DNA from: Acorus gramineus
Taxonomy: Eukaryota; Streptophyta; Magnoliopsida; Acorales; Acoraceae
Assembly: GCA_030737835.1 (NCBI GenBank)
Contig: CM060850.1
Location: 1,577,788 to 1,641,787 of the forward strand
Direction of reading: 5' to 3'
Length of the DNA: 64,000 nt
This document shows positions 40,955 to 58,400 of this stretch, one piece after another (position 1 is the first letter of the stretch; each line of letters begins with the position of its first letter). The notes under the pieces were generated by a model, which saw nothing but the letters and a program-made list of their open reading frames with translations, was not told the origin of the DNA and searched no databases. A program made the translations under genes and the position numbers.

Positions 40955-41507
40955 GTAAGAAATATTGACTAAACTACGGATCTTTTTCGGGGATGCTTGT
41001 GTTGCCTATTTTTCTTTTCGTTCAGAAGGTTATATTTTCTTGAATTTCTATGTTGGGTTTCTTTTTATGGTTTGGAGTGATTTTGATCATCTGAAGTTGA
41101 AGGCACTGTGAATTAGGGTTTCATGTGATCATCAGTACTGTTTCCTCTCATCGGAGAAATTGTGATCGATTTTATATATTTTTATTTACACGTGTATGAA
41201 CTTTCGAGGTCAAGGATTCTTGAGCGTGCGAGACCCATCGTTTTTCAAGGAAATATAAGGCCTGAGACTGAATGCAGTAGTTTTTTTTTTCATTTAGAAA
41301 TCTTTGGGTTATTTTTTTCCATGATTGTCACATAGATATGGGTGGCTCTGTTGTCGTCGTGTTGTGGAACGAGTTTTCACAAGGTTTAGAGAAAGACATA
41401 GCGGCAGGAGATGAAAGTGTCCTCTCTCTCTCTCATGCCTTTTGAGCTTTATTGGAAGATGTTGACATTTATTCCCAGTAATATATTGTGGTTGTCTTTC
41501 AGTGCGC

Positions 41508-44500
41508 ATGAAGGGCATTACTCGTTTGCCAAGAACCATTTACAGCTCTTTGCGCTCAAGTGTAATTTTCTGTGACTTGACTAGAGTTGTGGAAGAGTTG
41601 ATATTTAATAGCTTGGACGCCGGCGCTACCAAGGTATTGCGGTTTGAAATGGGCATTTGTGATATAATAATTTCATTTCATTTTTTAGAATGGAACTTGA
41701 AGTTGTTCATGGATTTTCATCGTCTAAGATTCATAATTGTGCATCTTTTGATGTCTGTATATATAGTATCTTTTTTTATTATCTAATACTTGTTATTCAC
41801 TAGCTTCTTCTTCAGTTTATTTGTTAGCTTTTTTAAAAAATTGGCATTTTTTAATTTCTGTAAATTTGATGTTGTCTGTATGTACAATTATTCATTTATA
41901 ATATCCTGGTCCTTTTATCCATCACAAAAAAAACCTTGGTTATTTTTAGTGGAGCACTGTTTTAAAGGGCTGACGTTTGTAACTAAAAGTTTGAATTTTT
42001 GCTTTTTATTACAGGTTTATGTTTCTGTAGATGTTGGTACATGCTATATTAAAGTTGAGGATAACGGTGGGTGAATGTCATCTTCTTCAATATGGATTTT
42101 ATGTGCGCACAGGTGTACTAAGTTCTTATTTTCATTTTGTATCCATATGTATAGGTTGTGGCATTACACGAGATGGATTGGTTCTTTTGGGGGAAAGACA
42201 TGGTATTTAATGCTTGAGACATTTTTCTTTTATTTCCCCAATCAACAGTATTTTTGCAATATTACGTTGGTACACTCAGTAAGAGTGTTGCTATTTAATT
42301 CATTTTTTATAAAATGGAATTTCATCCACATTGTCCACGTTTCAAATTTGTAATGAGTGTTAATTTTAAAAATGGTTATTTGAGCAGCAACTTCGAAGCT
42401 TGACCTATCTGAAATGGATGCTAATACTACAAGCCTGGGTTTTAGAGGAGAGGCACTGGGTTCACTTTCAGATGTTTCCTTGCTGGAGGTTGTAACAAAA
42501 GCTGCTGGGAGGCCGAATGGATACCATAAAGTCATGAAGGCATGGATTTATTTTCTCTCGCTATAAAAATACGACTACCATGATTATTTTTTAAATCATC
42601 TTGGCAGAATTTTTATGTGATCTAAATTTTTCATGTTTTATAGGATTGGAAGTGCTTATCTCTTGAAATTGATGATCGTAGGCAAGATGTGGGTACCACA
42701 GGTAATGTATCCTTGTCAAATTTACCTGTTGCCTTGTGATTTGATTTTCTGGGAAAGACATGGTTCTTCTATTATCTTGTTGTGGAGGACATCAACTTTT
42801 TTGTTAGCAGTATTGAAAGTGGTAACAATTTTGTGTGGAAAGATTGCAACGAATGGGCCTCGTTTTTTTATCTTCTTGGAGGAGCACTAAATGAAACACA
42901 CAGGCACACATGAACTCACAATAGTCTAAAAATCCAGAATGTGCAATGATGTTACTGAAGGGAGGCTTCTGATAATTATAAGATCAAACGGTGACACTGT
43001 TGATATTAATTATACTGATCTCTATTCCTGTACTATGCATGGTAAACAGTTTCAGGATGTGTAATGATCAATTATATATATCCACAGCCCCCTCTTTCTA
43101 GTTTCTTTCTAAGATGGCCAGTCGGTGGTTTAAGTTGTATTTTACCTGATGGGTTACATTTGTGCAATCTTGATTTGTAAGAAATGGCTCTGGCCTTGCA
43201 GTCATTGTTCGTGATTTGTTTTACAATTGGCCGGTCCGGAGGAAGTGTATGCAGTCCAGGTACCTCTTCTCAACCTCTTCTCTCCTAAAATCGTGCCATT
43301 ATTGTTATAGTCCAGTAAATGGCATGCAATTCACTTCACTTTTAAATTTTTATGCTATATCTTGGAATTCAGTTTTGTGGTGACATAATAGTTCTTGTAT
43401 CTGTCCTTGAAGTCCCAAAAAGGTGCTGCATTCTGTGAAAAAATGTGTACTTCGGGCTTCTCTGGTTTATCCACTGGTTTCATTTAAAGTCATTGACAAC
43501 ATTGGGTGAGTCTGTGTTACGTCGTGTGAGATTGAGGCAGCCATGCATTTACAAATTTCTAATCTTTTGAGTTTCTTAATGCAGCGAAGATGTGCTGCTC
43601 TGTACTGTTCCTTCCTCGTCTCCCTTGCCACTAGTAAAGAACTTTTTTGGAAATGAAGTTTCTAGTTGTCTCCAAGAATTAACATTTCATGGTGGACCAC
43701 TAAAGCTTTCTGGCTACATATCTGGCCCTGCTGATAATCTTTTGACAAAGGTAGACATGATTTAATTTCTGTGATACATGGGTGCCTGAATTTGTAGTAA
43801 CATGGTTCTCAGTGGCTGTTATGTTGCTGTTGCAGGCTCTCCAGTTTATATGTATCCATCTTCATGCATATGTTTGCAGAACAATATGGAGTTAAAAAAG
43901 CTGCCCTGCATTAATGCAGTCTTTTTGTGTTTCAGTGGATTGTTGACCTTTACATTTTCAGACATCAATTCGAGATTTGTGTACAAATGCCCCATACATA
44001 AATTACTCAATAACCTCGCCATGCATTCACACTGCCCTTTGACCCCATGGAGGGATGAACCTGAGCTTCAATCTACAAAGAGGCACAAGGTTCAAGGATA
44101 TCCTGTGTACCTGCTGAACTTATGTTGCCCCCTATCCAGTTATGATCTAACCTTTGAACCATCAAAGACGATCATAGAGTTCAAGGTGGTATTTATCAAT
44201 TTCTGCCTCTTTCTGAATTTAATTTTCTTCTGAATCTGTGGCCTCTTTTACTGCTATCTATAATTATTTATAGTATAATTCTGCTCTTAATAATTTCATT
44301 TTGATTAGATACAGAGATATATTATATATACAAGCAATTTAGTATTTTTTTTCCTTTTACAGGATTGGGTTCCTATACTTTCTTTTATTGAACAAGCAGT
44401 CATGAACATCTGGAAAAAAAGTTCTGCCATTCAAAGGCGAGGTTAAACTTCAACTGGATGTCCTTCTCAGTAATATTATACCTTCCATTATTTTATTGTG

Positions 44501-47500
44501 GAATCAATTGATTCTTTACAACTTTTTTATATTTTATAATCAACAGGATTATTTGATGATTGCAAAGATAGTCATCCCACAAATGGTGTAATTTTGAAGG
44601 AAGGTGTGCCATCTTACTCATCTATAGATATTGCTTTTAAAAATTACTGAAGTTCTGTTGTCAATGTAGTAGCATAGATCTCCATTCAGCAGTAAAATTT
44701 GATGACACTATCTTTTCTCCAAAAACCGTTGTAGTATGAATGTATGATCCAGCATCATTAATTTATACCTGAACAAGACTAGAAAGCATCAATATGTCAG
44801 AAATAATGACAAAATTTTATTCCATGTAAATTGTTATAAGTATTTTTAGATGAATGGAACTTTTAGGTGAACAACTTATTAACCTTTAGATACTTTGAAG
44901 TCAAATTTTGAAGAAAGATATCCTTACAGGTCTAGAAAAATCTTGCTTTAATAAATTTTGTTAAAAAATTTCTGTCTCGGCTTATTGTAGCAGGCAATCA
45001 CCCATGAAATATTTATTCCTTAGATATGGCATCTTTTATTTTTATGTCTCTAACTTGGGTATTTGCTTGTTTGAGACATTTTTAGGTTTATCTGTAAGCT
45101 CTAGATTGGGGAAACACAAATACAGTTCCCAGGTTTCTCAGAATTCTATGTGTCATAGCCCAAAAGCTAGTTTCCTTGAGACATCACCAGGAAGTGGGTT
45201 GTCTGATAGGTGTTACAGAACATTTAGAGGAACGTGGGATGATTCTGATATTGATGATCACACTTTCCAGAACACTTCTACAGAAGCTTATAATGTTTCT
45301 GATGCAATGTATGATCGAATATTTGACAAAAAACAAAGCTTTCATCAATGGGGAACTGATGCTGATTTTTTCTCCATGGAGGAGAACATCATCTCAAAAA
45401 GTTCACTGGAGAGACATGCCACAAATGGTGATAACTATGGTGCTTTAGATTCTGCATGGGGATCTGAATCTCACAAATTATATGAAACCTCAACTGAAAT
45501 ATTTACACCAAGCACCGACATGCGTAACCACTATTACTGTAAAAATGACCGAGAAGATCCATTTCTGTTAGTCTCCCCTAGGCAGGGTGATAAGTCAGGC
45601 TTAAGAAAATTTAATTCACTGGAAAAGAATCCAACTGACTCAATGTTATTATCAAATCTTCAAAGTCGTGGAGTCGAGTTTGATATCTTCAGGATCAAAG
45701 AAAATGAGATTTCTTCCGATGACATTATTTCAATTGCAAATTCTTGTTCCTTTGAAGCGGATTGTTCTTACTTAAAAGAGAATCTATGGGATGAGAAATC
45801 TGCAAATCCTCGACTTCGCTTTGGTGTTCTAAGAAAGTGCCAGAATAACTTTGATGTAGATCTATCTCCAGGGCATTCTCCCTTTACAGAGTGCTTCACC
45901 AAGTATGGCAATGCAGTTGCCCAAGTTGGTGAGAGAAGTGTTGCCTTTCAGTCCACTGAACAAGGACAGTGTTCTGGATCCCCATTGTCCATTCCTGATC
46001 ATTTTCTCCAGGATGCTGGTTATTTTACAGAAAAATATGCAACAATAGAGGATCACATATCACGAAAAAATCTCCGCTCTAAATGTTTCAGCAATGGTGG
46101 AGTGGGGGATGAACATGTTAACAATACTCAAAATAATTCTGTCGCAGAAGATTTTCTGACCATGAGTAGTCCCAACACTTGGAGGAATTGGTATACTCCT
46201 AGAATGAATCACCGCAAACATTCACACTATATACACCCACTGCATGAGAAAAAGTTTTCTAACTCTAACCCATCAAGTAAGTTAGACGGTGAAACAGATG
46301 AAACATTTCCGGATTTTTCCATAAAAAACAAGACTAACAATTGTGTGAAATCTGTATTTGATAAAAGTGATGATATGGGCACCTCAGATATAGATATGGA
46401 TATGCTGGATTTTCGAGATTTGAGAAGGTCCTATGTTTCCAATTTGCGATCAAGGAGAAGCCATTCAGCCCCACCCTTCTACAAAGGCAAGAACAAGTAT
46501 TCACTCTCACAGGAATGTTTTAATGGAACTTTTGAAAGTAAGAATCATGAAAAGTCTTCCCATGTTGATCATACTTCATCAGGTTTGCATGCTGGATCCT
46601 TAGTTTCATTTCTCAAAAAAAAAAAATATAAAACGCTGAATAATGTCAAGTTATGTTGTGTGCTCATCCTTTGCAGAAACTTCACATGACGCCAACAATC
46701 CATTGGGTGATTCAAAATCTTATGGTATTCCAATCGAAGTTTCTCTCTCATATTCTAGGTAATATTCTTTGTTTGCCTTCTGCCTAGTCATCTAGTATCA
46801 CACACACAAATTACATGCTTAACACCATGATGATTTGGTCCTTAGAGAACACATGAAAACAGATCAGTTTTGCATACCTAACATGAAAGATATGGAAGCC
46901 AGGCATCAATTGGAGCACCCTCCATGTTTTTACCAGCCTGACTCTGTTGTAATAGAAGGTAATGAAAAATTTACTTTCATTTAAAATTTTAATACAGATT
47001 TTTTTTTTGTCTAATTTGATAATATATTACCTTCACAGACATTGTTCCTAACAAATTAGAAGAACCAAACATTAATCTGACGAAGTGGAGGAATGGTGAA
47101 CCACAGCCCACAGATGCAGATCTGGTGAAATGTTGAAATATTTCAAAAAAATTAAATTAGTTTGTTTGAATATTTTTTGAAGTTCATAGAAAATGTTTTG
47201 GCTATTGTATTTACCATGAACAATTTTCTGCTGATTTTTTCAGGGTGGATTTCATGGCAAATCACACAAGGTTACTCGTCATGAGGATGATATACTTGAT
47301 GTATCTTCTGGGCCTTTGCATCTTGCTGGTGGATTATTAGTACCACAATCTATCACTAGGGATTACCTTCTAAATGCTACAGTTCTTCAACAACAGCTGG
47401 ACAAAAAATTTATTCCTGTTATGGCAGGTGGGGTTCTTGCCATTGTTGATCAGGTTGGCAGCATTCCACTCTCTTTACCTTCTTTTTGGATATTGATAGG

Positions 47501-50500
47501 TTTCAACTCTATCTCTACTCTCTATTTGTATAACTTTTCCCTCCAATGCGAACCCTTCATTCGTGCTGTTAGAGACTTTGCAAGCATCTGATTGTAATCA
47601 TTCATACTGATAATACTTAAACATGCTTTATAGCATGCTGCAGATGAAAGAATCCGTCTGGAAGAACTGCGTCAAAAGGTATGTAGCCAGATTTCCTTAA
47701 AAGATTTCTCTTATTTAGCTCTTGCTTATTAGGCTTCTTGGGGTTATAGGTATTGTCTGGTGAAGGCAAGGGGACTACTTTTCTGGAGTCTGAGCAAGAG
47801 CTGGTATGCTGGTCTATTTTGCTTATGCAATGAAATATTGTTACTTTTTTTTTCCCTGGGAAGCTTCAAATTCAGTTTTTTTTTTTTTTTTTATTAAATC
47901 CTTAGAATTTTTTGAACGGATTTATAAAGTGGTTCAAATCTTTTACATAGATGCTCCCCGAGACAGGGCTTCAGTTGTTGCAGAACTACACTGAGCAAAT
48001 ACACAATTGGGGTTGGATATGCAATGTTCATGCTCAGAGAGCGGGATCCTTTACAAAGTAATTTTGTGCATTGTATTATCTGTCATTGATTTAATTTTAA
48101 GTGCTAATTTAGGAATGACCACGGAAAGGAATTATGGTGTGTTTTGAGTTCATACATCTGATATGACCCAGCCCAGCTTTGGAAATTGGCTATGTTGATG
48201 TTGTTTTTTTTTCCGATTTTTATCTGTTCTGCAGGAATCTGAATACTCTAAACAAACAATCAGCTAGGGTGCATCTTGTTGCTGTGAGTACATAATTTAT
48301 TTAATGAATTTAGAAAAAGCTTAACAATTTTGTTTTTCAGTCATTTTCTCTAGTGGCAAGATAACCAGTATCTTTGTTTGTTGTTTGTTTTAATGTTTTG
48401 TTTCTTTAAAGTTGCCAACTCACAGTAAACCTTGTGAGGGCCAATTTTATTTTGCTTTTCCTTTTGTTGTGGATTTATAGCAGGCATTTTGAGTTAAAAT
48501 TCAGCATTACTTCCATCTTTTGCCTCATGTTCTCATTTTTACTAATAATTCCACCTGTTAAGCTCATATAATTTGTTTTTGTTCCTTTTATCCTTCTAAT
48601 GACTGGCACCCATCAAATTAATTTTTCTATGCTACAAGTGGTCATCTCTACAGACATCACCCCTTGCTTGTTTGCTATCATGAACACTTATCTCAGATTT
48701 TGCATAAAAATTATGAGTATCAAATATTGTTTATGTAGGTTATTTTTTTAAATGCATGCTGAGGTTTAACAATGGTGTACAGACAATCATATAGTTCACA
48801 TTGATTATTTTACATTTCCAATATGTATGGGAATTACAATATGATAAACACCTTTTTGTGTTCCTTAGATACCTCAACTTTAGGAAACATATAAAAGTAT
48901 TTAAATATGGATATTTGGCTGATAAATTGCTGCAGAGATGACTGTAGACCCAGTATTGATTATGCTTTCGTACCTCCTCATCTAGATTCTTTCCATGAGT
49001 TGAAATTTTGGCTCTCTGGTTGCATGAGCTTTGACCATAAGCCTTCCCTTCTCTCATCTCATCTTGGCCAAGGGTTTCATCACAGTCCCCTTTCCTGCCC
49101 AATAACTAGGGTCTGGAATATTGACATCAAGTTTTCAGCTGGCCATGAGACTCAGTTGATTTTGTTGCGGGGCCTTTTTTTTAAAATTTAATGTGCTCCA
49201 TGCTTGACTGCATTTTTGGGGACAAGGTTTGGTGTTACTTTTTGTTTATGAAGAAAATACGAAGTGCAGCTCTCTAAATTCCATTACCTGCCTAACAATG
49301 TAAACATGGTTCCAGTATGAAATGCTGTTTTTTTATTGCATATTCACATGTATGTGCATGACCGTGCAGGTGCCTTGTATTTTAGGAATCAACTTGACTG
49401 ACAAAGATCTCATGGAGTTTCTTCAACAGGTAGGACAATTTTTTTTCCGCTATAGACCAGGTATACCTTTAATCGTTGAGCAAGAATATATCTGTGCCAC
49501 ATTTGTGTCGCGTATATGCGTGTGATTCACTTGCTGAAATTAGACCCTTTGTCTTTCCATGACAAACTCCACTGAGTTAATTCGCATTTGAGGTTCTTAA
49601 ACTGATCAAAGCTTGTGCAGGCACATTAAGATTATTTCTTCAGCAATTCTAATTCCTAAATCCTAATCTTAATCACCTATTTATATCCTGTCTATACTTC
49701 TAACATCATTGTGGTGTCACGTTATCTAGCTAGCTGAGACAGATGGATCATCAGCTGTGCCACCTTCTGTCCTTCGAGTACTCAGTTTCAAAGCATGCAG
49801 AGGTGAGTTTATTTCTTAGACACAGCGGTTAATCAGGAGAAAAAAAAACTACTGTCATGTCATTGTGTATTGTTGCATATGAAAATTCTGTGCTGACTGT
49901 ATATATTACATCTTCTGAACAAAAGGCGCCATCATGTTTGGGGATTCCCTGTTACCTTCCGAGTGTTCGCTCATCATTGAAGAACTTAAAGAAACCTCTC
50001 TTTGCTTTCAGGTTAGTTATCAGTTCCTCTGGCTTTCAGGTTAGTTATCAGTTCCTCTGGAATTTTACTCTTTTGATCAAATTATTCTGAATCAACCAAT
50101 AAATTATCTGACCCAAATAATTTATTTCATTGGAAATGTCAAGAGACAATGTTTGAAAATAAGTTTGGGTAGCTTTGAAGATTCTGCTCTCGTGGGAATC
50201 ATGCGTAATCTGAACTCGTTTCCAAATGCACCCTGATCCAAATTCTAAAAAAAAGCGGAAAACATCTTTGGGCCAGTATGACGTTTGCTCAACAGCCAGG
50301 AAAATTCTTTTTGGAATCTTCCATTCCTACGTTCATTCTTGGCCAGGCAAAATTCCTCCTTTCAGGGAATCTACTAGAATTAGATTCCTGGGAAGAACTT
50401 CTGGGCCAGAAATACCATACTACTTTTCATGAATCTAACAATTGTATGTTTCTTGAAAAAATATTTTTAAAAACTGCTTTTGAAAAATTGTTTTACTAAA

Positions 50501-50757
50501 CTTGTTCCTAATCAGGTTCTTTTCAATTTATATCGCTCATTGATTTTTGCTCCAATGAATTACATGTTATGCAGTGTGCTCATGGGCGACCTACGACCGT
50601 CCCTCTCGTCAGCCTGCCAGCTCTGCGCAAACAGTTGGCTAGGCTCGAATTGCAGAGTGGTGGCCGATCAGAGCGGTGGCACGGACTCCGCCGGCAGGCA
50701 CCGAGCCTTGACCGAGCACGGCTGCGTCTCAGTTCGGCTAAGGGTCTTAAGGCCTGA
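41508..50757 (+). CDS. MLH3: DNA mismatch repair / meiotic protein MLH3, complete
   Basis: MLH3 pairs with MLH1 to form the MutL-gamma endonuclease needed for meiotic crossovers. The 25 phase-consistent exons end at 41633, 42066, 42202, 42539, 42701, 43259, 43505, 43750, 43851, 44185, 44441, 44603, 46582, 46758, 46958, 47124, 47453, 47678, 47803, 48057, 48283, 49429, 49802, 50011 and 50757, giving 1257 residues (Arabidopsis about 1170). GHKL ATPase motifs: VVEELIFNSLDAGATK (to residue 42), VEDNGCGI, ATSK and GFRGEAL (93-99). Exon 13 (45086-46582) is the long, poorly conserved linker. The metal-binding nuclease motif DQHAADERIRLEE spans 1038-1050 exactly as DQHA(X)2E(X)4E. ACRGAIMFGDSL and FQCAHGRPTTVPL follow. 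Exon 9 is 16 nt (43836-43851). Intron 4 starts with GC. All key residues are present. Confidence 0.95.
50004..50059 (+). repeat. 28-bp tandem duplication over an MLH3 splice donor
   Basis: GCTTTCAGGTTAGTTATCAG plus the next 8 bases occurs twice head to tail (50004-50031 and 50032-50059). The duplication copies the exon 24 donor CAG/GTTAGT. Use of the second donor would add 28 nt and shift the frame. Confidence 0.9.
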
Positions 50758-51845
50758 GGTTCTACACCATTCACTGTAAAATATAGTTTCTTCTCTGTTG
50801 TACCGTAATGAATTCCTTTACTGATTGCTGATGTGATATGTAATTCTTTCCAACCAAATATATCTCTGATATATGTATAGGATTTCCACTGTGAATTGTC
50901 AATTTGTATAGGTACAGTCGTACAAACAAAAAATTTAAGGGAGATGAACTGCACTTCTAATTTTTTTTTAAACAAAGTATATGCTTAAGCATGATTTTTT
51001 TTTTTGGCGTAAAGGAATGCATTGAATTTATTAGAGTCTATTTTTCTATTGAAGAAAATGAAATTATATAGTTTTAGAAAATCAAAGCTACGTGGATTGC
51101 ATGTAAAACTGAATGTAACATTCATGTCAAGAACATGGTTTAAAGGTAAGCTTTGTCAATTAATTAGTTTTCTTCATTAAAATGGTTCAGAGGTAAATTT
51201 ATGGATTATATTAAAATATATTTATATCTGTTCTGACTGATGTTTGAATATCAGGATTGTGGATTGGATATCAGTGTAATATGTTTGTTACATATTGTTC
51301 ATAATTATTAATTTACATGATTAGTCATAATTATTATATTTTTTTTTATGTATGATGATATCTGAAAATTTTATTAGAAGAGATTTGAATATAAAAATTA
51401 ATATTTTTCATGTACAAATGACTGTTAGGATTTAGATATTAGCATATCTCTTGCTCTCGTTGACAAAGTTTGGGTGGGCCAGACCGGTGGGTCCATCGGT
51501 TGGTTCTGACTGAACCAGGTCATCCGGTCCGGTTTTTAAAACCGGGCGCTATTACATTTAGTAAAACACATGAATTATTAGATGAAATATATAAGTCGTT
51601 ATTTTTTTTATATTTATTAAAAACATGTTCATTCAATTCAACATAAAATAATATATATTTTTTAGGATTATATTTATTATTTTTAAAAATTAAAAATACA
51701 TGTGATTTACGTTTTGAACCAATAAAAAGACCAATAACATATTCCTTTAAAACAGTGGTTCATCAAATCAGAATGTAATAAATCGGTTTTTGGTGGTGAG
51801 ATTCCGACTGACGTGACCTCTCGGTGCGGTTACCGCTCACGCTCG
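50758..51845. other. MLH3 3' region and spacer
   Basis: Mostly AT-rich. A short GACCGG/CCGGTCCGGTTT-rich tract lies around 51480-51545. No coding exon recognised. Confidence 0.35.
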
Positions 51846-51892
51846 CGCGGGAAGCCTAAAAAAAGGGGGTGTTCAAACACATCTTTCCCGCC
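51846..51892 (+). promoter_or_regulatory. two E2F-like sites, probably the original FANCJ promoter
   Basis: GCGCGGGAA (51846-51854, reverse complement TTCCCGCGC) and TTTCCCGCC (51884-51892) match the E2F consensus TTTSSCGC closely. E2F factors drive S-phase replication and repair genes in plants. They lie 17 bp left of the target duplication of the Mutator-like element, so before that insertion they would have been about 65-110 bp upstream of the FANCJ start codon. Confidence 0.5.
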
Positions 51893-52084
51893 GATCCAAC
51901 AAAGCTTTCGTTCCATAGGGGGCCGATATTCCCACCACCCCATTTATATTAAACACCACCCTTTATTTACAATATTGCCATCCGTGCATAACTCTCAAAA
52001 ATGCATTAAGGGCACCACCCTCCCCTTTTCACCACCCTAAGTAATTGGCTTGGTCAATCCCACCACCCTAAGTAATTGGCATAA

Positions 52085-52640
52085 GTTAGACACATGGGAT
52101 GTCTATGTAATTTTATTTCCTACACAATGTCGTTGTCGATGAAAATAGAAAAAAAAAACATGTAGGTTCTGGAATGAGTTAGACACATAGGGTGTCTACA
52201 TAATTATATTTCTTAGACAATTCATATGTCGATGAACACGGAAAAAAAATCATGTAGGTTCTGGAATGAGTTAGACACATGAGATGTCTATATAATTATA
52301 TTTCCTAGACAATGGCCATGTTAATGCAAACAGAAAAGAAAACCTTAGGTTCTGGAATGAGTTAGACACATAGGGTGTCTACATAATTATATTTATTAGA
52401 CAATTCCTATGTCGATAGACATAGAAAAAAAAATATTGTAGGTTCTAGAATGCGTTAGACACATGAAATGTCTACATAATTATATTTCCTAGACAATGAC
52501 CCTGTCGATGGAAACAGAAAAAAAACCTGTAGGTTTTCGAATGAGTTAGACACATGGAGTGCTTACATAATTATATTTTCTAGACAATATCCATGTCGAT
52601 GGAAACAGAAAAAACTCTGTAGGTTCTGGAATGAGTTATA
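52085..52640 (+). repeat. 92-bp tandem array, left
   Basis: Six units and part of a seventh start with GTTAGACACAT at about 52085, 52178, 52270, 52362, 52455 and 52546. Each holds AGACACATGGGATGTCT, an interrupted palindrome, then TAATTATATTTC.TAGACAATG, a GTCGATG word, an A run, and GTAGGTTCTGGAATGAG. Confidence 0.85.
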
Positions 52641-53206
52641 GTTGTGTGTTTTACTACACCAATGTCAATGGTTGTAGTAATTGGAGACTATTACTGTCGA
52701 ACACATAAATGTATGAAAGTTTTAATATTTTTTTTAAAGGTTAGATACATCGTGTGTCGAGTATATGTGTATTGTTAGACAGTTTGTTTTTCTATTCTTG
52801 CGTAAATCAAGTTTCCTCATGAAACATAAGGAAAAAATTCACAAATTTAACACGAATTACTTATCCAATAAAACATTTACAAACACATTCAACATTCATA
52901 TTCAATAGACATTCACATTCCCCAAAACACATTGACATTAATTAACATATTCACCCCTAAAGTATTATGAGGTTCTACAAACACAACCAAATCATAATAC
53001 AATCATGTGTTGAAACCTAAATAGTTTCATTTAAACTTCTGTTTCAATACACATAATACAAATTAAAACCACAAAACACATAAAAAATTATTCAACACTA
53101 ATTGTTTGTGGGCACTGAAATCTATAACACAAAAAAATTGAAAAATTTATTCTAACATGAATCAACTAATTCATCAATGTCGATTGTGCATTTGCTTTGA
53201 CATACA

Positions 53207-53399
53207 TCACACAGGTTTTGAGTCATGAAGTGGTGTTCCATCTTGCAAACAATGTATCATGTATCCAACTACTCTCTGCGTAGCCTTAATAGTTGTCTCC
53301 TGTCTCGAATTGTGGTTCATCATCTGAAACCATGCCATGTACCCCGAAACCACCTCCCAAGGTGTAGGTACTGGCTCGTCATGCCAATAATACTCTTCT
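53207..53399 (-). CDS. candidate coding exon in the Mutator-like element (plant-mobile-domain-like)
   Basis: On the minus strand, an acceptor (TTTCTCTTAG) is followed by 63 codons and a TGA. They read EEYYWHDEPVPTPWEVVSGY, MAWFQMMNHNSRQETTIKAT and QRVVGYMIHCLQDGTPLHD, then SKPV. The W....SGYMAWF pattern recalls the C-terminal end of the plant mobile domain found in MULE-associated and MAIN-like proteins; this is a weak resemblance from memory. A possible first exon lies around 54125-54150 (MTSHRGVFPPTP before a GT). It may be an element gene or captured host sequence, and it is probably incomplete. Confidence 0.35.
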
Positions 53400-54304
53400 C
53401 TAAGAGAAAAAAAAAAGATTCATCAATGCCACCAACATACAAACACTGAAAATTTGACTAATACATAGTATTTAATTCAATGAGTTACTAAAATGCATTC
53501 ACAACGCTATCTTTCAATCCTAAATCATTCAAATTCATCCAACACAATTCATTTTTCTAAAAAGATACCCTAACTTTCTCTAAATTATCTTTACTAGATT
53601 GATTGGAGCATGAATAAATTAGTATTACATTATTGTTTAAATATAGTTCTCAACAATATGTATTGAACCATTTTACAATTTTATATCAATGTCAGTATAC
53701 TAATTCATCTCATGAATATGTTCAACATGCCAACAATAATATTCTCTAAGGGGAATTTTTTTTCCCAACCAACGCCACCAACATACAAATTAATGAAAAT
53801 TAAACCAAAATGCATACCATCCCTAGCTTTGACTAATGTATTGAAATTCAACCAACACACTTCGTTATGAAATAAACAAAAAATAAAATAAAAATAAACA
53901 TAACTTTATATATCAAAAAACCCAAGCTCTCTTTCAAAGCCCTAACTTTCCCTATCAAAACCCTAACTTATCTACAAGAAGAACAATAATACTCATTAGA
54001 TCACAATTAACAATTGATTAAAAAGATATTTTTAAAAAATAGATATATTAATTTATTTCAAGAGAGATGAGTTTATGGCCTCAAGAGTGGCACGGGGAGG
54101 ACCTTACGGGGGTGGGGGGAAAGACTCCACGATGGCTTGTCATCGGCGTCCTCACAGCTGGAATAAACGGGAGGGGTACTGAATGAGAGAAATAGCAGAG
54201 AGAAGAGAGAGAATTATGTTATGATATGTGAAGGGTGGTGAGGTTGGTGTATATGAATCTAAAATGCATATGACCTTTATGAAAAAAAAAAAAAACCGTT
54301 GGCT

Positions 54305-54770
54305 TTGAAATGGGTTAGACACATGGATTGTCTATGTAATTATATTTTCTAGACAATGTACCTGTCGATGGGAACATAAAAAAACCCCGTAGGTTTGAGA
54401 ATGGGTTAGACACATAAGTTGTCTATGTAATTATATTTTCTAGACAATGCACATGTCGATGAGAACAGAAAAAAAAACTCATAGTTTTTGGAATGGGTTA
54501 GACACATTCCATGTCTATGTAGTTATATTTCATAGACAATGTAACTGTCGACGGGAACATAAAAAATAACTCGTAGGTTCTGGAATAGATTAGACACATG
54601 GATTGTCTATGTTGTTATATTTCATCGACAAAGTACCTGTCGATGGGAACAAAAAAAAAAACCTCGTAGGTTCTGGAATGGATTAGACACATGGGGTGTC
54701 TACATAATTATATTTCTTAGACAATGTCCTTGGCGATGGGACCAAAACGAAACTAGTAGGTTCTAAGATT
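54305..54770 (+). repeat. 92-bp tandem array, right
   Basis: Five units start with GGTTAGACACAT or GATTAGACACAT at about 54313, 54406, 54497, 54590 and 54684. They share unit structure and orientation with the left array. Units within this array share variants such as GTACCTGTCGATGGGAAC, which indicates separate expansion after the split. Confidence 0.85.
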
Positions 54771-55456
54771 TATAACACAAAAATGCAAGCTCCATCAGTT
54801 TTCCTATCAACAATAAATTTGAAAACAAACACATATATAAAAAAAACCATCCAAACTCATCTTAAGCCTTAACTCACAAGTTAATGCAAATCATTCCCAT
54901 AATTCAAAAGAACCCTAAAAAATACACAACAACTCTAACAAAATCTCATATAGGTCACAATAAAAAAAATGAAATCATCTTAAACAAAATAACCAGATCC
55001 AGATAACAGATACCCAGCAATACAAAAACAAGAAAGACAGATTGGTTTAGATAGATTACATTGATCGACCGACCCAGAATCCTATCAAAGAGAGTTGACA
55101 ACGTTAAAAGCGGACTGGAGAGATGTGGAGCGTCTTCACGACAGCCAATCGTCGGCGTCCTCATGAGTGCAACGTATGGGATGTGCCAAAGTGGTGTTCG
55201 AGAGGCTAGATCGGAAAAAAAAAAAAGAGAAAAGAAAGGGAAGAGAGAGGTCGATGGGATGAAATATGGTGGGTGGTGAGAAGGGTGTTTCTCATAGGGT
55301 GTTTATATATGGTGGTGCATTTGGTAAGTAAAAAAATTGAAGGTGGTGGACTACAAAAGGTGGTGCCCTAAAAAAAAAGGTAGTGGGAGTATCGCTGCCC
55401 CGTTCCATATCGTCTCGTCTTCTAAACCCCCAAAACCCGTACAAACCCTAATAAGA

Positions 55457-58400
55457 ATGGCTCCCCCAACCCAGAAGAGCCCTAACCCTAATCGAAACGT
55501 ATACCAGATCGGAGGGGTGCCCGTGGAGTTCCCCTACAAGCCCTATGGATCCCAGCTGGCTTTCATGGGGAAGGTCATATCGACCCTGGACCGGGCCCAT
55601 AGACAGGGTCACTGCCACGCCCTCCTCGAGTCCCCCACCGGCACCGGCAAGTCCCTCTCCCTCCTCTGCTCAACCCTCGCCTGGCAGCGCCACTACCTCT
55701 CCAGGATGCCCCCGCAGCCGGACCCGCGGATCGACCACGACCCGCTCATCGATGGTGGTGGGTTTCTCATTGAACCGGAACCGCCAAGTGAGCCCCCCTT
55801 CCCCCTCTCTTACTTTCCTGAAAAAAAAAGATTGATTTTTTATGATTCTGTATTATTTTATTTTTAAACAGCTTTTGTAGCACTAAAAATAGCAAATTGG
55901 ACCTCTGAATCTTGGGTAGTGTTTCAAAACGGGCTTGAAAAGGAGCTTTTGCTATTAGATTTTTAATTCCTGAAAAGCTCTTTTTCCATTGTTTATAGCT
56001 AAAAGCTGTTTTTTTTTTTTTTTTCAAAGCTGGGACTACTTGGGGCATGTGGAAACATGTTTGGGTTAAGGATGATTCCTGCAAATGCAATATCATCCAA
56101 ACGTGATTCCTGATGCGACCTTATTTCACTTGGATTGGGTTTAACTCAATTGGGTTGATGTAAAGATGCCCACTTTCCTTTGGTTTGGATAAAATTATAC
56201 TTTTTTATGAGTGGGTCATGCCTTTTGTCGTCTCAATTTCAGCTGTGAGCTTGCTACTTCTCTTTGTGGCATATATCAAGAATGGGATGCAAATCAATTG
56301 GTTTTTTTCTTGTAGTTCACATTTTAGTAATGCAGGGTTGCTTGGTTTTGTGCAATGTGTTATGTAGCCATTTTTTAAGTAGGAACAGACACAGGAAGTT
56401 GTTTAAAAGTATAATTATTAACATTTCAATTGTTTGATTGCTAGCTATTATGTTCACATGTGAGTTACACATGCCTGTTTCATTTGTGTTATCAATCACA
56501 CTGCTGAGTTTCTTTATTTTAAACAGGTAGGACACTTCCTGGAAAAGTTGGTCAGTCTCAAACTGCAAGCAATGGTAGGACACAAAGCAAACCAAAAGTG
56601 CCTAGGATCTATTATGCATCGTGAGTATTTGTTTTTTATTGGATAATGTTACTTACAACCCCTTTTTGAGCCCCAATTCTGGTCTACCCGTGTTTTGAAT
56701 TTTTTTTGTTGCAAAGAATCCTATGTTTCAAGATGGGTTTTAAATTTTACATTTGATAATGGATCCAGGAGGACACATTCTCAAATAAGCCAAGTGCTTC
56801 GCGAATATCGCAAGACATCTTATCGGGCGCCGATGGCAATTTTGGTAGGTCTACTTGATTTGGTTAACAGGATCGCATAACCGAGTGGTCTCATAAACAA
56901 GATCTTGTTTGGAAAATTCAGATGTAGACCTCTTATGGGGTTATTATAAGGTTATGATCAAAATGTGCAAATGTCATTTATATATAGATTTTACTTTCCA
57001 TGGTAGGATTTTTTTATTTCAATGTTTTTTCTCCACCATTTTTTTTTTCTTTTTCTTTTTTTTTTTTTGCAAATTTCTGACTTCTTTAAAATGTCTACAC
57101 CTAACCCTTTTTGGATGCCTGTTTAACTGTTTTGGTAAAATATAAATGACGATTTCAATTATATTCCTTTGAACTTCTAAGTTTTCCCTGGACAAGGTCT
57201 TGCTGAGTTTGCCTTAATATTAGTATTTTTCTTCTTTTCAGGCATCTCGCAAACACTACTGCACAAACAAATCCATATGTGGCAAAGAGAGTGTAGACGA
57301 AGAATGGTAAGTTTTCATGCTCAAAAGACGCCTTCAACCATTTTTTTTTTTTTTTTTCCTCTCTAATAGGGTTTGTTACATATGATCCAGCAAAGCGCTT
57401 TTAAAGGAAAAAGATCCGGATGCAGGATGCCTTGAGTTTAAGTGAGTTTTTTTTTTTTTTCATCTGTTGTTTTTCCTAACCATTATCACATATTTGACCT
57501 GTGGTTTGAGCAGAAATGTGCATAAAGTCAAAGGACATCCATCGCTTCAGATAGGTGGCTGTCACGAGGTTCATGATATTGAAGACCTTGTCAAAATTGG
57601 CCGGTCAGTCAAAGGTTGACTGCTTTGCCTTGAACCATATATACACGATACTGATGTTTATGACATTAATATTTGATTTTTTGTCTGGCAGGTTGTTCAT
57701 ATTTTGCTGCGCATGCCTTTGCAGATGAAGCTCATATAGTTTTTTGCCCATACAGCTACATAATTAATCCGATTGTTCGGAGAGCAATGCAAGTCAATAT
57801 TAAGGGTGCAATTGTGATTCTTGATGAAGCCCAGTATGTCATGAATCTTTTCAGATTATTTGCTTTACTTGTTTTACTTCATTTTCTGATGATATTTATG
57901 CTGCAATTCTGTTGGTTATGTATCTAGAAGAATTTTATGTGGTGCCCACTTTTTTCAAGTTTTTTTTTCTCGAGCCATTTATTTATTTTTATGATTTATG
58001 ATGGGGAAGCCCAATATTATTAATTTTTTAATGTTGGGAGAACCTAGGATGCGCAGAATCACTCACAAATCCTGTGCATTGGGTAAGCTTGGAAGGATTT
58101 GAACCCGAGACATATGGGGAGCAAACCCATGGCTCTAGACAAATTATTGAGCTTTTTTATTGTTAAAATCATTTTTTACTTGTTAGCGCTTTGAAGTTGA
58201 CCCGGCAAGTAAGTACTTGATCCAAAATCAGAGATGTATGCTCTCTTTATTTGATAGCTTCACAGTGTTTTTTGTACTTAGTGTGTTGGTCCATTTGTTG
58301 TCAAATCCATTATATAAAACAATGACATGATTTGAGGAATATTCATTGACAAAAAAAAAATGTGTGCGAGGATGAGGGATTGGTGGGGTCCTAAAAATGA

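Follow-up and report, generated by a model that had tools for sequence, protein, structure and literature searches.

Immediately upstream of FANCJ in a 64,000-nucleotide stretch of the Acorus gramineus genome (the window analysed here; GenBank assembly GCA_030737835.1, contig CM060850.1), we find a 3.48-kb segment that is, with a probability of roughly 0.85, a young non-autonomous Mutator-like (MULE) DNA transposon that entered the 5′ end of the gene and left a 9-bp target site duplication. The sequence-only reading that preceded this analysis had described a 3.48-kb element between identical 9-bp duplications and called it a Mutator-like insertion. Both descriptions hold up: the element measures 3,483 bp and carries CGTTCCATA at either end (Table 1), and the target duplication together with a mobile family supports the class. 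Exact matches to CGTTCCATA number two in the window, precisely those at the two ends of the element, where 0.33 would be expected by chance. The pair alone is not strong, because 6 of 100 shuffles likewise give two matches; its weight lies in the placement exactly at the element ends. The right duplication had been put 48 bp from the FANCJ ATG, and the element is indeed close upstream of the gene, with 47 nucleotides intervening, 48 being the coordinate difference. This short native stretch contains AAACCCTAA at 55443, which we take to be a telo-box.

The ends and interior of the element are those of an apparently non-coding transposon. The left terminus reads GGGGGCCGATATTCCCACCACC and the right one, once reverse-complemented, GGGCAGCGATACTCCCACTACC; these inverted repeats of about 22 bp are imperfect, agreeing at 17 of 22 positions by hand count. 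Further in, a subterminal array of ~92-bp units lies on each side, with six units in the left array, five in the right, and the same orientation in both; short dyads within the units, such as AGACACAT..TGTCT, are possible transposase-binding sites. The longest start-codon frame lying entirely within the element encodes 74 amino acids, and three frames inside it gave no Pfam match. A stretch of the right end recurs about 1 kb inward (54118-54154 and 55127-55163, 73% identity), resembling a second, inner right end.

Both ends recur elsewhere in the assembly, a single A. gramineus genome of 398.6 Mb in 137 contigs. A 158-bp query from the left end matched at least 39 other places at 91-98% identity (40 scored of 100 candidates), and a 321-bp query from the right end matched at least 39 other places at 78-99% (40 scored of 51 candidates). 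The terminus pattern GGGC-N1-4-GATANTCCCACYACC had 98 genome matches, compared with 0 for a reversed-pattern control. The 20 best-ranked of the 39 left-end places were fetched, each with roughly 2 kb of sequence to its left, and compared (copies are given L numbers and contigs C numbers); L040 has no right end within the fetched reach, leaving 19 others in which both ends could be called. In 13 of these 19 the element is bordered by exact direct repeats 8-11 bp long, with a register slide of up to 3 bases allowed in the calls, and eight of the 13 are 9 bp long. Since L041 and L048 represent one insertion on two contigs, independent exact duplications number 12. Among 18 other copies, seven are 1.3-1.5 kb long, ten are 3.3-3.5 kb and one is 4.9 kb; a different right end is present in the 1.5-kb copies L032, L038, L042 and L045.

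Some features of individual copies were also observed. In the 4.9-kb copy (L036, C7:19209760), about 1.45 kb of foreign DNA breaks the copy near element position 812-820. The flanks of L041 (C132) and L048 (C1) are 96-97% identical, and L022 (C94) and L040 (C73) share an insertion together with its flanks at 99.1% identity over 3,152 bp; judging from these two pairs, the assembly seems to contain some duplicate or alternative-haplotype stretches. The pattern list additionally holds many GGGCAGAGATACTCCCACCACC-form termini without a partner within a few kb, which may mark another, larger subfamily.

Evidence for mobility comes from sites resembling the state before insertion. The flanks of 17 insertions were joined at one target copy and compared with the window and with the sequence fetched for the copies, and two of the 17 joined sites (L039 and L043) lie inside older repeats whose relatives cross the junction without the element. 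Related empty sites with a single target copy are thus found for L039 and L043, unlike for the FANCJ site. L043 is also the closest full-length copy to the FANCJ element, from which it differs by 0.46%.

Judged by its substitutions, the FANCJ insertion is young. It was aligned with 13 other copies (seven close full-length copies, three members of a sister subgroup, and another three of partial, deleted or edited form), with indels left uncounted. Over its 3,483 positions the FANCJ copy carries 2 private substitutions, compared with 1 to 51 in the other aligned copies, and it differs from the seven other full-length copies by 0.46-0.91%. Private substitutions give an upper age bound within this sample, because changes that predate the insertion may be included. 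At an assumed 7e-9 substitutions per site per year the age comes to ~82,000 years (Poisson upper limit ~296,000); a rate of 2.5e-9 gives ~230,000 (upper ~830,000) and one of 1.3e-8 gives ~44,000 (upper ~160,000), all of these rates being assumed values. With so few private substitutions, an empty allele is therefore expected in the species or in a close relative.

Several results weigh against this interpretation. No exact duplication was called in 6 of the 19 other copies (L031, L032, L036, L038, L049 and L050), and the duplications of L044 and L045 are T or TA runs. The sites of L039 and L043 share just ~72-83% identity with their relatives, which in the case of L039 differ by 2 bases in length within the target. 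An empty FANCJ site was not seen, its flanks being without a second copy in the single assembly: the left flank (51751-51917) has no other match there, only the older repeat next to it (51560-51750) matching elsewhere, and for the right flank together with exon 1 the one match elsewhere spans 54 bases at 85% (contig C2), with no second allele. Lastly, comparison of MULE-domain matches with the 98 termini identified no transposase with these ends.

The name MULE rests on structure, because the comparison turned up no transposase that goes with these ends; the structure in question is a duplication of about 9 bp (8-11 bp) and terminal inverted repeats shared across the family. The MULE transposase domain PF10551 has at least 150 matches in the assembly, all above cut-off (150 scored of 1162 candidates). 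When the matches are set by eye against the 98 termini, a single one (C10) is no more than 15 kb inward of a terminus, and ~0.5 would be expected by chance. An alternative assignment, to some non-MULE terminal-inverted-repeat transposon with 8-11-bp duplications, would agree with the lack of a matching transposase and with those copies that 8, 10 or 11 bp suits better than 9. We consider it most unlikely, given that the commonest exact duplication is 9 bp (8 of 13) and that the genome is one with so many MULE-domain matches over the cut-off. Target duplications are 8 bp in hAT elements and 3 bp in CACTA and PIF/Harbinger elements, and 9 bp suits a MULE better than any of these.

Two candidate leads to an autonomous partner were followed. 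A 2.5-kb stretch inside an 8.9-kb end pair on contig C2 (L051) has frames of up to 154 amino acids, and four of its frames gave no Pfam match. In L040, on contig C73, a frame encoding a plant mobile domain (PF10536, 1.1e-30) lies ~3.3 kb inside the family left end, and the nearest right-end match listed for that contig is ~38 kb off. This frame was dropped as evidence for an autonomous partner, because the family homology of L040 stops at element position 1209 and the domain is presumably Ty3/gypsy-derived, according to a review (PMC8616336).

To the left of the insertion lie 167 bp that appear to be what is left of the proximal promoter native to FANCJ, with a GC fraction of 0.485 and a CpG observed/expected ratio of 1.32. 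Two E2F-type sites had been noted here, of which one fares better than the other: TTTCCCGCC fits TTTSSCGC, and is the one match to it on both strands of the 64 kb, while GCGCGGGAA fits the 7-base core TTSSCGC alone, which occurs 8 times in the window. Their separation from FANCJ by about 3.5 kb is borne out, as TTTCCCGCC now lies 3,564 nucleotides from the ATG and GCGCGGGAA 3,603, compared with 72 and 111 nucleotides when the flanks are joined. TTTSSCGC is absent from the element, in which the looser WTTSSCSS occurs once, at 54115. One possible explanation is that the words are chance matches on which FANCJ never depended. In PMC1779545, the source of the E2F word and consensus, TTTCCCGCC is reported as the non-cell-cycle-related word in Arabidopsis, which would fit such an explanation, as would the frequency of the core that is all GCGCGGGAA matches. 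We nonetheless regard chance as rather unlikely, since the sole TTTSSCGC of 64 kb sits 72 nucleotides before the ATG in the joined site and both words fall within a 167-bp stretch without other copies. Among the titles and abstract openings returned for FANCJ and E2F in Arabidopsis, none concerned the plant gene. Ownership of the E2F word by a divergent neighbour was considered and rejected, as the upstream MutL-type gene shares the strand of FANCJ and its last frame stops near 50,757.

In the sequence of events that we propose, a transposase encoded elsewhere would have mobilised the element into the 5′ end of FANCJ, its leader or its core promoter, and the native E2F-like word would thereby have been shifted from 72 nucleotides to 3.56 kb before the ATG. 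The earlier placement of the insertion in the promoter region agrees with its closeness to the ATG; as 47 nucleotides would make a short leader, the insertion may instead be in the 5′ leader and not in the promoter. FANCJ transcription would now begin in or beside the right end of the element, at an altered and perhaps lower level, a proposal that we hold tentatively and at slightly less than even odds. A TATA-like box, TTTATATATGG, faces FANCJ in this right end, and a start ~30 nucleotides past it would give a ~120-nucleotide leader without an ATG: the interval 55313-55456 has none, compared with 101 between the E2F word and the FANCJ ATG. The shorter string TTTATATATG is present in 15 of the 19 copies examined, the FANCJ copy included, and TTTATATATGG in 14; the four copies without TTTATATATG are those with the other right-end type. 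We consider initiation here the most likely outcome because of this ATG-free, TATA-like right end, the enrichment of maize Mu insertions at transcription start sites and the reporter activity of the OsPsbS1 promoter, the latter two being described below. On the other side, promoter evidence from a TATA-like string is weak when the element is AT-rich, and the copies sharing TTTATATATGG are close relatives, hence not independent support.

Three outcomes for FANCJ had been envisaged at the outset, namely a promoter supplied by the element, an upstream start with the element spliced out, and under-expression, and of these the second is now disfavoured. It would require that the native promoter is still active and that the element is removed as an intron of the 5′ leader. 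Leader introns are frequent in plant genes, and a GTAAGT at 55324, in the element right end, could pair with the acceptor candidate TAATAAG just before the ATG, although this could remove the right end only. Elsewhere in 51,800-55,457 there is no GTAAGT, and GTATGT is absent from that interval (the donor check covered these listed words). The GTs of 51854-51925 (GTGTTC, GTTCAA and GTTCCA) are all poor donors, the sole one between the E2F word and the element being GTTCCA, in the target duplication itself. Read-through from the old promoter would also traverse up to 101 ATGs and 9 AATAAA before the FANCJ start, and we find removal as a leader intron very improbable.

The third outcome, a weak or null FANCJ allele kept because it is recent, segregating or tolerated, with an empty allele perhaps in the same plant, is one that we place second and take seriously without favoring it. 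It is consistent with the very few private substitutions, and with an assembly that contains one allele of the locus, so that the other could be empty. Yet the exon pieces examined read as FANCJ, and expression can survive an insertion located before the ATG. Right-end initiation can also be extended to a stronger claim, that a very young MULE switched FANCJ from an E2F-linked promoter to initiation in its right end, with carriers and non-carriers within one species differing in the timing and amount of expression of this repair helicase. Taken as a whole this strikes us as unlikely by a wide measure; if true, the insertion would segregate as a modifier of DNA repair or of meiotic recombination.

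The gene itself is FANCJ. Joined exon pieces matched the Fanconi anemia group J protein in PDB (9ej9) at 4.5e-48, with XPD well behind at 5.7e-19, in keeping with the name FANCJ given to it from the start, and they contain the Pfam domains DEAD_2 and Helicase_C_2; exon 1 on its own had no Pfam match. Upstream, on the same strand, is a MutL-type gene (41500-50757, +) with an HATPase match and matches to MutL and PMS structures. Its middle and C-terminal pieces had no Pfam match and its C-terminal pieces no PDB match; we presume that it is MLH3, the sequence identifying a MutL-type ATPase only. On these matches, two repair genes are in tandem, the MutL-type gene followed by FANCJ. Between them, an older dispersed repeat has at least 39 other places at 69-88% identity (40 scored of 339 candidates), and none of the scored matches extends past query position 191 of 358. 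Because this repeat ends right before the 167-bp remnant, mobile DNA appears to have reached the FANCJ promoter from both sides.

Table 1. Positions of the element, its parts and the flanking FANCJ features in the window
Feature	Position	Strand	Basis
Older dispersed repeat just ahead of the FANCJ proximal promoter	51560..51750	.	identity search
Putative native FANCJ proximal promoter remnant, ending in the left target duplication	51751..51917	+	no other assembly match
GCGCGGGAA, E2F core only	51845..51853	-	TTSSCGC on the minus strand
TTTCCCGCC, good E2F word	51884..51892	+	fits TTTSSCGC
Left 9-bp target site duplication, CGTTCCATA	51909..51917	+	exact match count
Probable non-autonomous Mutator-like element, 3,483 bp	51918..55400	+	ends, duplication, family copies
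Left terminal inverted repeat, GGGGGCCGATATTCCCACCACC	51918..51939	+	end comparison, genome-wide terminus pattern
Left subterminal array, six ~92-bp units with short dyads	52080..52640	+	
Right subterminal array, five ~92-bp units	54287..54764	+	
TATA-like box, TTTATATATGG, in the element right end, toward FANCJ	55302..55312	+	
Right terminal inverted repeat, GGGCAGCGATACTCCCACTACC (reverse complement of the right end)	55379..55400	-	end comparison, terminus pattern
Right 9-bp target site duplication, CGTTCCATA	55401..55409	+	exact match count
Leftover native sequence ahead of the FANCJ ATG, 47 nt	55410..55456	+	
FANCJ exon 1, start codon at 55457	55457..55787	+	end inferred from GTGAGC donor

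This is an ordinary MULE insertion at a gene 5′ end, an event of a common kind, and it leaves existing knowledge of MULEs or FANCJ unchanged. MULE insertions in this position are a well-known source of regulatory change. The value of the FANCJ insertion is that it would be recent enough for an empty allele to survive in the species or its near relatives, and that probable control sites of a repair gene have been displaced by a known 3.48 kb, which would allow promoter use and DNA-repair phenotype to be compared cleanly.

Known systems resemble the FANCJ element in part. Maize Mu elements have ~200-bp inverted repeats, and the non-autonomous members need transposase in trans; the FANCJ element differs in having short imperfect ends and 92-bp subterminal arrays. 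For Mu1 in maize hcf106, an outward-reading promoter has reportedly been demonstrated by experiment. Outward initiation from an element end is also the mechanism that we propose at FANCJ, experimental in the maize case and inferred in ours. Maize Mu insertions are strongly enriched at transcription start sites, with a peak shift of <50 bp (PMC7337890), and share with the FANCJ element an insertion at a gene 5′ end with a target duplication. A further parallel is OsMULE-JSS1, described in PMC4178011 as a 2.7-kb MULE upstream of rice OsPsbS1 with a possible 9-bp duplication (CTTTTCCAG), missing from most indica cultivars and from O. glaberrima; the promoter type with the MULE had higher reporter activity. 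Its inverted repeats are ~80 bp and it lies 0.4 kb upstream, compared with ~22 bp and 47 nucleotides for the FANCJ element, and the two are alike in being MULEs shortly upstream of a gene with a 9-bp duplication, a possible one in the case of OsMULE-JSS1.

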